A stretch of DNA of 23,046 bases from a virus, in IMG/VR virus record IMGVR_UViG_3300030202_002856, positions 1-23,046 of that record. One strand, 5' to 3'. This document shows, piece after piece, positions 12,946 through 22,991 of the stretch. The notes beneath the pieces were generated by a model. That model was not told the origin of the DNA, searched no databases, and saw nothing but the letters and a program-made list of their open reading frames with translations. A program made the position numbers and the translations under genes. Position 1 is the stretch's first letter; each line of letters starts with the position of its first letter.

Positions 12946-13217
12946 TTAGATCTTCCTTCAGCAAAACCTTTAAATACACGTTCTTGCTTTTTCTCAGGTT
13001 CTTTACCGTTAAGTAAATTTTCTTCTTCTTGTATTCTGTTTAGTATCTCAAAAGCGTCAAATATAGCTAGCTTTTTAGTGGCTGCAGCATTCTTAAGTCT
13101 ATCAGCTGTAATGTCATCGCCACTATCAACTATAGCTTCTTTAGCTACTTTAATCAACTCTTCTACAGCTCTATGCCCAGCTTGGATTATACTCTTCTTC
13201 GTTTCCTTGATATTCAT
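12942..13217 (-). CDS. Small helical protein, small-terminase candidate
   Basis: This 91-aa protein is predicted to be mostly helical and lies directly upstream of TerL with an ATGA overlap (12942-12945). The helices are roughly residues 4-30 (ETKKSIIQAGHRAVEELIKV) and 38-68 (DITADRLKNAAATKKLAIFD, then EILNRIQEEEN). The tail (about 70-91) is basic. Small terminases are short, oligomerise through helices and are usually encoded just before TerL, which is the reason for the call. No clear helix-turn-helix is visible. Its first 47 bases overlap the end of the tandem-GroES gene; no later ATG exists, so the overlap appears real. It could instead be an unrelated assembly factor. Confidence 0.5.
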   Translation of the reverse strand: MNIKETKKSIIQAGHRAVEELIKVAKEAIVDSGDDITADRLKNAAATKKLAIFDAFEILNRIQEEENLLNGKEPEKKQERVFKGFAEGRSK

Positions 13218-13752
13218 ATTTTATTGTAATAAATTTAGAGTAAACTCTATATAGTCTTTCTCCATCAACGATAAACTCATATTCACTACTTGGTGTAAAG
13301 CCTACTAAATCACCAATATCTACAGTTCCATCAGATTGCTTTACAACACCTATTAGTGGCCGTTCTTTACTCTCATCAAACTTATCTATAGATTTTATAG
13401 GTTTGATAAAACAGAAGCCATCTATAGGTTTCCACTCGTTATCTCTTTTAAAAGAAAATATTTGATCTTTAGATACAAAGTATTTATTGTTTTTGAAGTA
13501 GCTTTTACTATTGCGCTCTCTACCTTTTACATCATGCCATCTTCTAAACACGTTGTGATGAACTATAACGGTATCACCAACTTTTAAATCAGACTTATTA
13601 TTAGCAGGTGTTGCTATTATTTCAGCTTCTCTGTTAACGTGTAGATGGTTGAATATTTCTGTGTTTACTATTAGACTTTTATTGTCTATGGCTATAGAGT
13701 TATTATATCTTCCACCTATGGGTTTTATGATATAATTATTTAAAGCTTTCAT
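13171..13752 (-). CDS. Tandem GroES-like (double Cpn10-fold) protein
   Basis: This 193-aa protein reads as two GroES folds in a row. Domain 1 (about 1-102) opens MKALNNYIIKPI, close to MKAINNYVVVDKI of the GroES at 18173-18430. It then has LIV at 27-29, where GroES has the IVL of its mobile loop, LKVGDTVIVHHN at 56-67 (GroES: VKVGDIVIFND), and a closing strand YFVSKDQIFSFK. Domain 2 (about 107-181) repeats this with PIDGFCFIKPI, VDIGDLVGFTP at 144-154 and GERLYRVYSKFITIKY at the end, but shows no clear IVL-type tripeptide. GroES caps GroEL; a fused pair resembles the plan of chloroplast Cpn20. It shares one base with the preceding 73-aa gene (TAATG) and sits just before the terminase genes. 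The fold assignment is motif-based; chaperonin binding is inference. Confidence 0.65.
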   Translation of the reverse strand: MKALNNYIIKPIGGRYNNSIAIDNKSLIVNTEIFNHLHVNREAEIIATPANNKSDLKVGDTVIVHHNVFRRWHDVKGRERNSKSYFKNNKYFVSKDQIFSFKRDNEWKPIDGFCFIKPIKSIDKFDESKERPLIGVVKQSDGTVDIGDLVGFTPSSEYEFIVDGERLYRVYSKFITIKYEYQGNEEEYNPSWA

Positions 13753-14283: not shown

Positions 14284-14487
14284 TTATGACCAGTAGTTAC
14301 CACAAGAGCAATACTTAATATCATACAAAGCATTACAAGTTACCTCGTAATCATTTGAAGGTAAATCGTGATCTTCTACTTTTACAATAAGATTACCGTC
14401 TAAATCTATAATTCTATAATCGCTAGCGGTGCACGTGTATTTACCATCGACCATCGTGCCATCCGAACATTTATCGCATTCTTCCAT
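14284..14487 (-). CDS. Small Cys-rich, possible zinc-binding protein
   Basis: This 67-aa protein has cysteines at 4 and 7 (CDKC), 19, 51, 60 and 62 (CSCG). The CXXC and CXC pairs at the two ends could bind one zinc ion and close a small beta domain. It starts 1 base after the stop of the 307-aa virion protein gene, indicating co-expression. It is acidic and has no other recognisable motif. Zinc binding is inferred only from cysteine spacing. Confidence 0.6.
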   Translation of the reverse strand: MEECDKCSDGTMVDGKYTCTASDYRIIDLDGNLIVKVEDHDLPSNDYEVTCNALYDIKYCSCGNYWS

Positions 14488-16101: not shown

Positions 16102-16521
16102 TTATTTATTAGTTTGTTCGTTTTTCTTTGAACTTCCACCGAAGAAGAAGTCTATTATTGTATTTACTTTAGCACTCATCGCTCCAAATATTGTTGATAT
16201 GAAGCTTATTTCAAATTCACCAAGATCTATTGTCTTATTTACAAAGTAATTAAACATTATGTAAGTAATACCAAAATATGCTATGGTAAATAACGTAGCT
16301 AATATCTTTTGAATAATAGCGTCGTCTTTATAAAGATCACGCGCATCTTTGCGATCTTCAACTTCTTTTGAGAAAGCTTCACGCTCTGCGTCTAGTAATA
16401 GCTTTTTTATTGCAAGCTTTGCAGCATCTCTTTCTTTGTCTGTAGTAATAACTTTATCAAGTATACCCTCTGCGTTGTCTACTACTTTACCTAATATTCC
16501 TCCTAGTAAATTCTGTATCAT
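16102..16521 (-). CDS. Holin (GTA_holin_3TM-like)
   Basis: This 139-aa protein has an N-terminal amphipathic or weakly hydrophobic segment (IQNLLGGILGKVVDNAEGIL). A charged helix with DAAKLAIKKLLLDAEREAFS and EDRKDARDLYKDD follows. Two clear membrane segments lie at about 69-93 and 104-127, ahead of a basic, hydrophilic tail. This layout, including the NTIIDFFFGGS end, matches the holin family first described for gene-transfer-agent release. Holins form inner-membrane holes that time lysis. The start overlaps the stop of the HEXXH protein gene as ATGA (16518-16521). No classical endolysin is recognisable in this window, so the partner is either elsewhere or is the upstream gene. Confidence 0.75.
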   Translation of the reverse strand: MIQNLLGGILGKVVDNAEGILDKVITTDKERDAAKLAIKKLLLDAEREAFSKEVEDRKDARDLYKDDAIIQKILATLFTIAYFGITYIMFNYFVNKTIDLGEFEISFISTIFGAMSAKVNTIIDFFFGGSSKKNEQTNK

Positions 16522-16859
16522 ACTTTATTATTTTCCCAAGGTAAATTTTTATCTCCCTCAGTGTATTTTTTGCCAGTGTGAGGATCTGTTATATATCCAT
16601 TACCTCTTGGCCAAACTTCACCCATGTGATAAATAGCATGATCATCATAAGTGGTTTTACCTATTTCCATATCTGTCTGATGCTGCTTTTCATGAGTGAC
16701 AACATACTCAACCATACTTTCAGGTACTTTTGAATCAACATATATAGATCCATCGCTATTAGCCTCACCCATTATACCATCACCAAGCTTTTTTTTAAAT
16801 ATCTTAGTGTTGCTAGAGTTCTTAAAACCTCTTGTTTCTTTACCTAGTTTAAAAGCCAT
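16518..16859 (-). CDS. Small HEXXH-motif protein, putative metallopeptidase
   Basis: This 113-aa protein contains HEKQH at residues 56-60 in a hydrophobic helix (MVEYVVTHEKQH), the zinc and catalytic signature of zincin peptidases. Possible third ligands downstream are D63, E65, H74 and H78; none is certain. The N-terminus MAFKLGKETRGFKNSSN is followed by a beta region with ANSDGSIYVDSKVP. I recall similar short HEXXH proteins in marine phages with no assigned job. It overlaps the winged-helix gene by one base (TAATG) and the holin by four (ATGA). That placement suggests a role in lysis or virion maturation, but no signal peptide is present. The family is well supported; activity is inference. 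Confidence 0.6.
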   Translation of the reverse strand: MAFKLGKETRGFKNSSNTKIFKKKLGDGIMGEANSDGSIYVDSKVPESMVEYVVTHEKQHQTDMEIGKTTYDDHAIYHMGEVWPRGNGYITDPHTGKKYTEGDKNLPWENNKV

Positions 16860-20368: not shown

Positions 20369-20773
20369 TTATTTTTTATATAAGTTTTGAGCTCTACGCT
20401 TTCTTATTTCAGTATCACTTAATAGTTTACCTGTTTTTTTATCGTGTCCTGTTTTAGTATAACTTTTTTTATCTTTGCTTTTAAGCTTCATTGCAGACTT
20501 TTCTTTAAGCTTCATAGCAGCTTTTTTCATTTTTTTAGCTGAATCTTTTTTTAAGATTTTATCTTGCACTTCTTCAGGTAGCCTGTCAAAGCCTTTATTT
20601 AAATCCATTGGAGAGTCTTTCTTCAACTTCATTGGCTTTTTCATTTTCATTGGCTCTTTCATCTTCATAGGATCTTTAGCCATTTTCATAGGTTCTGCTT
20701 TTTTCATTTTCATTGATGAACCTGCTTCTTTTGCCATCTTCATAACAGATGGATTTTTCATTTTAAATGCCAT
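20369..20773 (-). CDS. Lys/Met-rich repetitive protein, histone-H1-like
   Basis: This 134-aa protein is dominated by lysine and methionine. Residues 21-52 hold four xPMK units (EPMK 27-30, DPMK 34-37, EPMK 40-43, KPMK 46-49) spaced 6-7 residues apart, then SPMD. A short ordered segment RLPEEVQDKILKKD (64-77) is followed by more KxxxMKLK units and a basic tail (IRKRRAQNLYKK). S/T/D-P-x-K units recall the minor-groove-binding SPKK repeats of histone H1. It begins MAFKMKNPS, like the 40-aa protein (MAFKMKMKS) in this cluster. A DNA-condensing role in the virion or during packaging is inference; no folded enzyme domain is present. Confidence 0.6.
   Translation of the reverse strand: MAFKMKNPSVMKMAKEAGSSMKMKKAEPMKMAKDPMKMKEPMKMKKPMKLKKDSPMDLNKGFDRLPEEVQDKILKKDSAKKMKKAAMKLKEKSAMKLKSKDKKSYTKTGHDKKTGKLLSDTEIRKRRAQNLYKK
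20624..20695 (-). repeat. 18-21 bp coding repeat (xPMK units)
   Basis: Within the Lys/Met-rich gene, residues 27-50 are encoded by four imperfect units of 18-21 bases, each containing CCTATGAAG/CCAATGAAA-type codons. The units differ at synonymous and acidic positions, so they are old or under selection for the peptide. Confidence 0.65.
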
Positions 20774-20811
20774 GTCTTAATATATTAAGTTATCGATGTT
20801 TATATTATTAC

Positions 20812-21090
20812 TTATGTTCTTGTTCCTTTACCATATTCACCGCGGTTAGCTTTAACAGACACAAACTTACCTTTACTATGGTCATAGTCTTTACCTGCTA
20901 AGCTTATGCCTTTTTTCAAGGCAGCACGTCTTAATCGTTGGTTTTCTGCTTTTTTGTTTTTACGATCATCAGTTTTTGCTGCAACTAAGTCTCTTGTTGC
21001 TTTAGCATCAGCAGCTGCTGGAGATAACACTTGCTTTTTCATAGGACAAGATCTTCTTCTTTTACCGTGCATTCGTCTTCTTCTACTCAT
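20812..21090 (-). CDS. Arg/Lys-rich protamine-like protein
   Basis: This 92-aa protein starts MSRRRRMHGKRRRSCPMKKQ, a nearly pure arginine head with one Cys, and continues with an Ala/Lys-rich helix (AAADAKATRDLVAAKTDDRK). It ends with KGKFVSVKANRGEYGKGTRT. I chose ATG at 21090 rather than one 12 bases earlier because it forms an ATGA overlap with the preceding stop and is preceded by GGAGAGAA, a rare good Shine-Dalgarno here. The arginine-rich head resembles protamines and virus core proteins that neutralise packaged DNA. The function is inferred from composition. Confidence 0.6.
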   Translation of the reverse strand: MSRRRRMHGKRRRSCPMKKQVLSPAAADAKATRDLVAAKTDDRKNKKAENQRLRRAALKKGISLAGKDYDHSKGKFVSVKANRGEYGKGTRT

Positions 21091-21365
21091 TTCTCTCCGC
21101 ACTTTTTACTAGGGTTGTTAACTTGTCTCCAATCTTCTTTTTGAAACCAATCTCTTAGTGTAGCACCTTTTTTACGAGCACCTTTGACGTTAGTCTTAGA
21201 AGATCTTTTATATTTACCTTTAGCGCCAGAAGATCTTTTAGCGCGCACAAGCTTTTCTCTTTCAGATTTGCTCATGCTACGTATTTTAGCAGCGGGTAGA
21301 CAAGTTTTAGTTGTACCACCACCTTTTTGCTTCTTTTTAAATGGATTATTTAGCTGATCGTACAT
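21087..21365 (-). CDS. Basic phage protein with DWFxKEDW motif
   Basis: This 92-aa protein starts MYDQLNNPFKKKQKGGGTTK. It then has CLPAAKIRSMSKSEREKLVR and a C-terminal TLRDWFQKEDWRQVNNPSKK ending in CGEK. The two blocks (P.AKxRSMSKSE and DWFxKEDWxQVNNPSKKCGE) are recurrent in small basic proteins of marine phages; as I recall them the order is often reversed. Two cysteines (22, 89) are present. Its N-terminal QxxNPFKK matches the 97-aa protein at 22532-22825. It follows the previous gene by 1 base and overlaps the next by 4. It is likely a structural or DNA-binding protein; no activity is known. Confidence 0.6.
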   Translation of the reverse strand: MYDQLNNPFKKKQKGGGTTKTCLPAAKIRSMSKSEREKLVRAKRSSGAKGKYKRSSKTNVKGARKKGATLRDWFQKEDWRQVNNPSKKCGEK

Positions 21366-21366
21366 A

Positions 21367-21645
21367 TTATTTCTTTTTATTTAGCCTTTTACGTACAATA
21401 TTCATAGTTGTACGCATTTTCGCAGCGTAACTAGGTTTTTTCTTGCGATTAAAAACTACTTGTTGGTTTAAACTGCTAATAATTTTTGATAAATTGCCTT
21501 TTCTTGACTTAATTAGCCAACTAGCAAGCGCAGAAGGTGATAAACTTTTAAACTTGCCTTTAGCGTCTGGCGCATCAGACTCTTTAAACTCGCCCATACG
21601 CTTCTTTTTTGGCGATCCTGTAAACGTAGAGTTTTTAACTTTCAT
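21367..21645 (-). CDS. Basic helical protein, unknown
   Basis: This 92-aa protein has a basic, disordered head (MKVKNSTFTGSPKKKRMGEF) with an SPKK unit. The conserved-looking core is LSPSALASWLIKSRKGNLSK, then IISSLNQQVVFNRKKKPSYA and MRTTMNIVRKRLNKKK. The core reads as two or three helices and could bind DNA or pair with itself. No cysteine is present, unlike most of its neighbours. Its start overlaps the PAP2 gene stop as ATGA (21642-21645), so expression is linked to the phosphatase. I cannot name a family. Confidence 0.55.
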   Translation of the reverse strand: MKVKNSTFTGSPKKKRMGEFKESDAPDAKGKFKSLSPSALASWLIKSRKGNLSKIISSLNQQVVFNRKKKPSYAAKMRTTMNIVRKRLNKKK

Positions 21646-22181
21646 TTTTTGCTTTTTAAATGCTTAAACATGTCTTTACCTACTTGCTCACCAAACTTAC
21701 TGTCTGATTTGTAGTGTGCGTGTGCTACGTTTCTACTGTAAGATATGTCTTCACCTATTTTTTTGAATGCTTTAGCGTGTTTTGGGTGCATATCAGATAA
21801 TACTTCAGCTATCATTACGCCTTGAACAGAATGTCCTGATGGATATGATGGCGTTTTCATTGAATCTAACTCTTTATCGTCAAATTTAATATTCATCTTT
21901 TTAGCTAAAACTTTAGGTCTTGGTCTGTTGTGATGTTTTTTAATTTTCATTATGATCGGTGCAGACTTTTCTATTAAGTTATCGATCATATTTTTTGGCA
22001 CATCTAGATTTTTATCGTCTATAAGCTTTTTAAACGATGCTTTAATATCATCTTTATCTTTTACAAACTTAACATTAATAGGGATTTTGTTAAGCTCTTT
22101 AATTTCTTGCATCGTAGTGAAAGAATTATCACTCGGTGGTTTCTTGTCTAAATACTTTTGTATGTTAAACTTTTTAAACAT
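21642..22181 (-). CDS. Soluble PAP2-family phosphatase
   Basis: This 179-aa protein has the complete PAP2/acid-phosphatase signature: KX6RP as K79...R86-P87, PSGH at 114-117, and SRX5HX3D as S149-R150, H156, D160. The spacing is exact, so H156 is the likely nucleophile and H117 the acid. Related enzymes remove phosphate from lipids, polyprenyl diphosphates or small phosphoesters, or act as vanadium haloperoxidases. No membrane segments or signal peptide are visible, so it is likely cytosolic or carried in the virion. The N-terminal 75 residues are Lys/Asp-rich. It sits inside a run of basic proteins (3-base gap before, ATGA overlap after). The substrate is unknown. Confidence 0.85.
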   Translation of the reverse strand: MFKKFNIQKYLDKKPPSDNSFTTMQEIKELNKIPINVKFVKDKDDIKASFKKLIDDKNLDVPKNMIDNLIEKSAPIIMKIKKHHNRPRPKVLAKKMNIKFDDKELDSMKTPSYPSGHSVQGVMIAEVLSDMHPKHAKAFKKIGEDISYSRNVAHAHYKSDSKFGEQVGKDMFKHLKSKK

Positions 22182-22184
22182 GCT

Positions 22185-22397
22185 TTATTTCTTTTTGAAA
22201 TCGCCTCTTGTACATCTTACGCCCCAACCTGAAGCATACGCTGATGGCCATACTTTAAACTTTTTTTTAGCTTGGGCTTTACAACTAGCACTAATCTTAC
22301 CTTTCATAGGAGATTCGTCTTTCATCTTCACGCCAGACATTCTTCTTCTACCGCATCCACCTTTAGGTATAGGATTACTTTTTTGTATATAAGCCAT
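22185..22397 (-). CDS. Basic protein with FKVWPSAYASGW motif (DUF5872-like)
   Basis: This 70-aa protein starts MAYIQKSNPIPKGGCGRRRM, has an ESPMK unit and ends with CKAQAKKKFKVWPSAYASGW followed by GVRCTRGDFKKK. The K.KFKV(W/Y)PSAYASGW block is a recurrent motif of small basic phage and giant-virus proteins, which I associate with DUF5872. Three cysteines are present. It lies 1 base after the 40-aa gene and 3 before the PAP2 gene. Function is unknown; a virion or DNA-binding role is inferred. Confidence 0.65.
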   Translation of the reverse strand: MAYIQKSNPIPKGGCGRRRMSGVKMKDESPMKGKISASCKAQAKKKFKVWPSAYASGWGVRCTRGDFKKK

Positions 22398-22398
22398 A

Positions 22399-22521
22399 TT
22401 ATTTCTTTTTTCTAGGTACGCAGTTTGGCACCATTCTGTTACCTTTCTTTTTCATACCTTTCTGCACGTGAGATTTCCAACATGCTTTCATAGGTGATTT
22501 CATTTTCATTTTAAATGCCAT
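22399..22521 (-). CDS. 40-aa basic protein with ACWK...VPNCVP motif
   Basis: The 40-aa protein starts MAFKMKMKSPMKACWKSHVQ and ends KKKGNRMVPNCVPRKKK. An earlier in-frame ATG would extend it by 41 residues into the preceding gene, but those residues look like out-of-frame sequence, and the MAFKM start is 10 bases after the previous stop and matches the 134-aa protein start. The ACWK.....GMKKKG..MVPNCVP pattern is one I recall from small phage and algal-virus proteins. Two cysteines could form a disulfide or bind metal. Function is unknown. Confidence 0.6.
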   Translation of the reverse strand: MAFKMKMKSPMKACWKSHVQKGMKKKGNRMVPNCVPRKKK

Positions 22522-22531
22522 ATCTATAGTT

Positions 22532-22825
22532 TTAACATTTCCATCTTCTTCTAGCTGCTTTACCTCTTTCACCAGTCCAAGACTTAGATCTAGCACAGAA
22601 CGACTTTCTACGCTTAGCAGCTTTGCTTCCAGGCTTAACATCACCTGTTACGGCAGTTTGTAGTTTGCTACCAGGATTTTTACGCTTGTATTCAGCAACA
22701 CCTTTAGCAGTCATACCAGCACCTTCTTTTACAGTACGGAAGTTACGGCCTTTACCTTTAGTAGTTTTTCTAGGTTCGCTACTTGAGCGCTTCTTAAATG
22801 GATTTAATACTTGTTCGTATGCCAT
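22532..22825 (-). CDS. Basic DUF6321-like protein, first of the cluster
   Basis: This 97-aa protein has 29 Lys/Arg against 6 acidic residues by hand count. It starts MAYEQVLNPFKKRSSSEPRK. The core is GAGMTAKGVAEYKRKNPGSK, then LQTAVTGDVKPGSKAAKRRK and SFCARS, ending ARRRWKC. I associate the GMTAKG...YKRKNPGSKLQ...RRKSFCAR...RRWKC pattern with DUF6321 proteins of marine T4-like and other phages, although the usual glycine-rich spacer differs here. It is the first gene after the 22826-23046 leader, so its promoter should drive the whole basic cluster. DNA condensation or virion incorporation is inferred. Confidence 0.65.
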   Translation of the reverse strand: MAYEQVLNPFKKRSSSEPRKTTKGKGRNFRTVKEGAGMTAKGVAEYKRKNPGSKLQTAVTGDVKPGSKAAKRRKSFCARSKSWTGERGKAARRRWKC

Positions 22826-22861: not shown

Positions 22862-22910
22862 GTGTGACACAAGCCTGTTACTATCTAACCTTAATAGGCT
22901 CTTGTCACAT
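22862..22910 (-). terminator. Large imperfect hairpin upstream of first basic gene
   Basis: Arms 22862-22876 and 22896-22910 pair over about 13 of 15 positions around a 19-base loop. On the minus strand the stem is followed by ACTTTTAATAT, a weak U-tract, so it may be a terminator or attenuator upstream of the 97-aa gene. It may equally be an RNA stability element. Confidence 0.35.
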
Positions 22911-22991
22911 AAAAGTTGTTGTAAATATATAAGTATAGTGTAGCCCCTACCTTGTCATGACATATTGTCATATAGAAAACGAATTTATTTA

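Follow-up and report, generated by a model that had tools for sequence, protein, structure and literature searches.

The window analysed here, 23,046 nt of viral DNA taken from an IMG/VR virus record of 23.7 kb (IMGVR_UViG_3300030202_002856), carries between positions 20369 and 22825 seven genes for small, strongly basic proteins of 40-134 aa, B1 to B7, all on the minus strand. Our preferred reading, which is possible but tentative, is that these are virion-associated proteins made late in infection, probably internal and associated with DNA, with disulfides formed within single modules and with N-terminal leaders that are maybe sorting tags. The evidence comes from composition, module architecture, cysteine pairing, shared leaders, gene position and the virion proteins of cyanophages.

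Lysine and arginine make up 27-35% of the residues of B1-B7, the isoelectric points lie between 10.3 and 11.4, and lysine exceeds arginine in each of the seven (net charges in Table 1). In every other listed gene product of the window the net charge per residue is at most +0.10, and the structural proteins scaffold, portal and major capsid protein (MCP) are acidic, with net charges of -40, -26 and -25, respectively. An earlier note on this DNA had described seven adjacent Lys/Arg-rich genes of 40-134 codons, which is borne out by the open reading frames (ORFs), their charges and their K+R content. It had overlooked an eighth gene of the interval, encoding a PAP2 phosphatase between B3 and B4; the tight spacing stands, with gaps of 10, 1, 3, 1 and 38 nt and two overlaps of 4 nt. 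Cysteine is present in five of the seven basic proteins, as that note had said (2, 2, 3, 2 and 1 residues), and the motifs CARS, RWKC and VPNCVP were all recovered. Its remark that cysteine is sparse in structural proteins holds for MCP, portal, scaffold and the 290- and 390-aa proteins, but TerL has eight cysteines and GroEL seven.

B1 passes the gathering score of the Pfam family DUF6321 (PF19846; 43.2 vs 28.5 bits, E-value 6e-11). C77, R79, S80, W95 and C97 are invariant across 20 sequences, drawn from phages that infect several groups of hosts, and the family ends in FCARS...RRW-x-C. The named phages with DUF6321 infect Pelagibacter, Synechococcus, Prochlorococcus and Methylophilales, and B1 has matches in 51 contigs from metagenome-assembled or single-cell genomes, counted together. 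B1 has predicted helices, and its AlphaFold2 model is of low-to-moderate confidence (predicted local distance difference test, pLDDT, 69; predicted template modelling score 0.43). A Foldseek search with this model gave good scores only for viral DUF6321 proteins and no functional match. A virion protein of Synechococcus phage S-SCSM1 reached an E-value of only 0.55 in this search, and the claim of homology between B1 and S-SCSM1 therefore rests on Pfam and sequence. Solved structures for DUF6321 were not found, and a literature search on the families returned nothing naming DUF6321 or DUF5771; DUF5872 is named in one paper.

Translations show T4-like cyanophages to have modules of the B5 type, B3, B2 and B1 joined in a single protein whose gene lies near the terminase. 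In S-SCSM1 this is ORF29 (517 aa), which carries B5', B3, B2 and DUF6321 (3e-22), and the PHROG profiles of long proteins hold B3, B2 and B1 in that sequence. When named phages were searched directly with B3 and B5, the matches were weak or absent; their link to named phages was obtained via the cyanophage fusion protein. When B5 of the window phage and its relatives (flavophages in the following) was aligned with the cyanophage module, local scores were 77-96 for the rotated and 47-61 for the unrotated sequence, compared with 37-41 for shuffles (standard deviation ~7), and the optimal cut fell on the predicted joint in 6 of 6 comparisons. These alignments indicate that flavophage B5 is circularly permuted relative to the cyanophage form. 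Further fusions, of a B2-like module with B5 and of B5 with B1, occur in other relatives. That the modules are repeatedly joined and split argues that B1, B2, B3 and B5 work together.

The cysteine pair of B1 is invariant at both positions, and pairs were found in 22 of 22 B2 modules and 29 of 29 B5 modules, where the search patterns for B2 and B5 partly presuppose the first cysteine or its surrounding context. Of 46 B3 cores, 41 have both cysteines, five have neither and none has a single one; the five cores lacking the pair look related, so that independent losses perhaps number only one or two. The pattern fits an intramolecular disulfide, or a joint ligand, in each cysteine module. Since a module has two cysteines and keeps or lacks them together, bonds within the module are suggested rather than cross-links between molecules. 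Conserved pairs occur in four members: B4 and B7 are free of cysteine, and the single cysteine of B6 is kept in only ~9% of its family.

Two N-terminal leaders, M(A)YxQxxNPF (leader 1) and MAFK[ML]K (leader 2), recur on different families. Leader 1 is found on B1, B3 and B5 of the window and on B4 in two relatives (L187 and L189); leader 2 is found on B2 and B7 of the window, and relatives have it on B3 or B5. Leader 1 starts 32 of 182 small basic proteins but 2 of 647 others, and leader 2 starts 20 of 182 and 10 of 647, counts that include related sequences, whose p-values overstate independence and to that extent weigh against our reading. B3, B4 and B5 are each paired with differing leaders in different relatives, which makes exchange between non-homologous cores direct. 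Within the window, different synonymous codons encode the residues that the copies of leader 1 have in common; the likeness therefore lies at the protein level. By analogy the leaders may be sorting tags; an effect on translation may be an alternative role.

About 20 related contigs have homologues of most members (B1, B3, the PAP2 gene, B4, B5, B6 and B7) upstream of GroEL/GroES, with the order largely kept. The ratio of nonsynonymous to synonymous substitution rates against relatives is 0.00-0.65 and mostly below 0.4, which indicates that the cluster genes are under purifying selection. Small basic genes cluster beyond chance in permutation tests, with p ~0.003 for the window and 1.5e-4 and 5e-5 for two near-complete relatives. 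In these two relatives, of 61.9 and 63.6 kb, almost every small basic gene of the genome sits in this block, which is the first on the late strand, right after the divergent early region; the genes for chaperonins, terminase, portal, scaffold, capsid and tail follow downstream ("late" is read here from gene position and neighbours). The window terminase is 64% identical to its counterpart in a Manatee Spring podovirus and 46% identical to those of Flavobacterium Elemovirus phages, and Cellulophaga, Tenacibaculum and Maribacter phages are also among its matches. Because the terminase matches flavobacterial phages, a marine flavobacterial host appears likely for the window phage. The basic cluster probably forms the first part of its late operon.

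Proteins bearing these modules have been reported from the virions of two cyanophages. The virion proteome of S-CREM2 includes ORF137, at 4.1% coverage and with 4 unique peptides, whereas neither of the flanking gene products, TerS (ORF135) and TerL, is on the virion list (PMC10665884); ORF137 (108049-109521) ends in DUF6321 (3.5e-10). ORF29 of S-SCSM1 has all four cysteine modules, and its record gives it the label "virion protein". We counted 48 such labels in that record, three more than the 45 proteins detected by mass spectrometry (PMC9602691). The label very probably means detection by mass spectrometry, because non-structural proteins that the paper reports as detected also carry it (PMC9602691). 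The equivalent gene of S-P4 is named "structural protein". Judged by homology, virion association of the module proteins appears fairly well supported; the predicted presence in virions thus stands for relatives of the modules and not for the window phage itself.

The head-interior location, DNA binding and condensation, leader function and disulfide state are what we infer beyond this. In the mechanism proposed, the B proteins would be made just before assembly and drawn into proheads, to which the shared leaders could direct them, as the capsid-targeting sequence does in T4. They would end inside the head, bound to packaged DNA and offsetting its charge, and the oxic seawater met after lysis would let disulfides form and stabilise the folded modules.

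Several points weigh against this reading. Homologues in Syn9 and S-SM1 are labelled hypothetical although both phages have published proteomes, which is tempered by the poor tryptic mapping of Lys/Arg-rich proteins. Extra, partly acidic domains of the cyanophage proteins, not the basic modules, may explain their presence in virions. S-CREM2 ORF137 has the DUF6321 module only and few peptides, and CsCl preparations may contain abundant non-virion proteins, according to the authors (PMC9602691, PMC10665884). The phage group of the window has no proteome, a literature search on pelagiphage virion proteomics gave nothing useful, and the paper on Baltic Flavobacterium phages contains no proteome. 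The virion evidence covers none of B4, B6 and B7. Finally, a PAP2 enzyme amid the basic set does not fit a pure packing model.

Homologue-based virion association gives no location, and the B proteins could be virion components that do not pack DNA but bind the capsid, portal or tail, cross-brace the shell, or are ejected to act on host DNA or ribosomes early. The position-by-position conservation of B1 and B4 is more like that of specific binders than of charge neutralisers, and the cyanophage modules sit on a larger multidomain protein. The uniform strong positive charge of seven unrelated sequences better fits a nucleic acid target, however, and the family searches gave no related capsid-binding family. 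We consider this explanation somewhat unlikely.

The proteins could also be late cytoplasmic helpers of assembly or packaging that are absent from mature particles, aiding the terminase or balancing the acidic scaffold and chaperonin substrates. Their location before GroEL/GroES, in the same block as the terminase, would agree with this, as would the DUF6321 genes lying few genes from the terminase in the unrelated phages S-TIP28, S-CRM01, S-N03, P60, Venkman and S-CREM2, and the hypothetical labels in Syn9 and S-SM1. ORF137, on the other hand, was detected in S-CREM2 virions while TerS and TerL are unlisted, an argument that is not decisive because the preparations include scaffold and protease and hence proheads. 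Overall we regard helpers of this kind as distinctly unlikely.

RNA-binding or ribosome-directed proteins serving host takeover or late translation are improbable: small Lys/Arg-rich proteins of this kind would resemble ribosomal proteins in composition, but Pfam and NCBIfam gave no ribosomal or RNA-binding family match, and the late-strand position and the virion homologues speak against it. That ordinary, unrelated small phage genes came together by chance, their charge without common purpose, is highly improbable given the permutation tests, the repeated synteny, the fusion of four members in one protein and the common leaders, even though most members belong to families without assigned function and several turn up alone in other phages.

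Table 1. Genes and noncoding elements of the basic cluster and its upstream region (window coordinates)
Feature	Position	Strand	Description	Evidence
Second noncoding element	22916..22949		GGGGCTACACTATA...TATATTTA as read on the minus strand; upstream of B1	Conserved in relatives
Inverted repeat	arms 22863-22876 and 22896-22909		TGTGACA...TGTCACA; upstream of B1	Conserved in several relatives
B1	22532..22825	-	97 aa, net +23, DUF6321, leader 1 (MAYEQVLNPF), Cys77 and Cys97	Pfam 6e-11
B2	22399..22521	-	40 aa, net +14, CWKxH...PNCVP module, MAFKMK start (leader 2)	phrog_9737 4e-9, phrog_727 7e-6
B3	22185..22397	-	70 aa, net +16, KVWPSAYASG module, leader 1	phrog_27331 3e-6, phrog_727 1e-4
PAP2/PhoN-like phosphatase	21642..22181	-	179 aa, net +16	Pfam PAP2 7.5e-7, PhoN structures 4e-11
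B4	21367..21645	-	92 aa, net +22, helical, Cys-free	AlphaFold2 pLDDT 75
B5	21087..21365	-	92 aa, net +21, module circularly permuted vs cyanophages, leader 1, Cys22 and Cys89	Rotation test
B6	20812..21090	-	92 aa, net +21, phrog_6437 family (P60 gp41, Syn5 gp50)	phrog_6437 5e-5
B7	20369..20773	-	134 aa, net +28, KMK-repeat protein, MAFKMK start (leader 2), Cys-free	

The noncoding region upstream of B1 (22863-22949) is a plausible early/late control site, which could act as an operator, a promoter or a leader hairpin. An Rfam search gave no match, and a search of defence families no meaningful one. B4 has 70-91% identity to the window copy across 14 relatives (15 sequences in all), and a Foldseek search with its helical model returned one phage homologue (5e-5) and no functional match. 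A resemblance of B4 to giant-virus folds (Harvfovirus, Marseillevirus) reached E-values of only 0.4-1.5. Assignments of B4 to DUF5771 (14.2 vs a gathering score of 26.2 bits) and of B3 to DUF5872 (16.4 vs 27.5 bits) fell below the Pfam threshold and were rejected; that both could belong to families common to phages and giant viruses is a lead, not a claim. Histone-type SPxK motifs number 3 against 0.2-0.3 expected in the basic proteins of two relatives, small counts with one motif in the window, and were not used. The PAP2 gene, kept at the same place within the basic cluster of relatives, scores 29.4 bits in Pfam against a threshold of 27.2, and its product retains the RP, PSGH and SR...H motifs.

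Elsewhere in the window, the 113-aa product of 16518-16859 starts with MAFKLG, which resembles leader 2, and contains THEKQH, an HExxH-like motif; it is possibly a small metalloprotease. A second GroES-like protein (13171-13752; phrog_13932, 8e-22) lies near the terminase, besides the GroES adjoining GroEL, and an acidic 67-aa protein with six cysteines in the structural region (14284-14487) is possibly zinc-binding. Near-identical Lys-rich proteins of 43-46 aa (phrog_25774), another basic companion family, adjoin DUF6321 and the terminase in phages of Synechococcus (S-TIP28, L263:8242-8373) and Methylophilales (Venkman, L268:1325-1465).

Phages of SAR11, marine Synechococcus, Prochlorococcus and Methylophilales, and probably those of flavobacteria, carry the families discussed here, nearly all of which are annotated as hypothetical. 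If these families are DNA-associated virion proteins, ocean phages have a widespread trait that has escaped notice, perhaps through poor tryptic detection of Lys/Arg-rich proteins; the fusion, circular permutation, cysteine pairs and common leaders make this cheaply testable. More speculatively, and unlikely as it stands, B1, B2, B3, B5 and helpers might belong to a kit of interchangeable basic modules, closed by disulfides and common to marine phages, which shared N-terminal leaders direct into heads as a form of phage chromatin; flavophages would encode the modules separately, cyanomyoviruses as a single fused chain, and pelagiphages and cyanopodoviruses as single copies. As far as our searches go, the assembled set, module exchange, cysteine pairing and leader sharing are new; single members were already known as families. 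The system had been called unusual, and because single members are widespread in marine phages, that description fits the assembled set.

Protamines are arginine-dominated proteins of weakly conserved sequence that condense DNA and form disulfides between molecules. Like them and the basic core proteins of eukaryotic DNA viruses (ascovirus P64, PMC6163548), B1-B7 are small and strongly positive, with cysteine in some members. The window set differs in being Lys-rich and conserved in sequence, with a cysteine pattern suggesting intramolecular pairs, and no homology was found. The label "protamine-like" in the earlier note does not survive the excess of lysine in all seven, the position-specific conservation and the predicted helices in B1 and B4; of the functional analogy, real, basic, late-positioned proteins with paired cysteines and homologues in virions remain. 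In T4, the internal head proteins IPI-IPIII carry a capsid-targeting sequence. They too are several small basic proteins with a common N-terminal sequence; the head location of the window set is only proposed, no sequence relation was found, and the T4 proteins are not known to be cysteine-paired modules.

The window PAP2 protein matches class A acid phosphatases PhoN/PhoC of the PAP2 superfamily by sequence (4e-11) and motifs, but is basic, has no obvious signal peptide and is encoded inside a phage late operon. Cyanopodovirus proteins P60 gp41 (2e-32 against phrog_6437) and Syn5 gp50 share the PHROG of B6, are small and basic and adjoin a RefSeq "terminase small subunit"; there the gene is single, whereas B6 belongs to a seven-member set. 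Among families without assigned function (DUF6321, phrog_10346, phrog_4689, phrog_727), the domain of B1 also ends S-SCSM1 ORF29 and S-CREM2 ORF137. In T4-like cyanophages DUF6321 forms the C terminus of a protein of 490-724 aa, whereas B1 stands alone with its own leader; pelagiphage DUF6321 is also stand-alone, and B1 differs from it by belonging to a larger set. Between gp16 and gp17, T4-like cyanophages encode proteins (S-SCSM1 ORF29, S-CREM2 ORF137, S-CRM01 gp34, T4-GC119) that carry at least one of the modules B5, B3, B2 and B1; their genes lie in the late structural region beside the terminase, and two of these proteins are reported in virions. The cyanophages have a single fused protein with extra domains, whereas the flavophage has separate small genes together with B4, B6, B7, PAP2 and a permuted B5.

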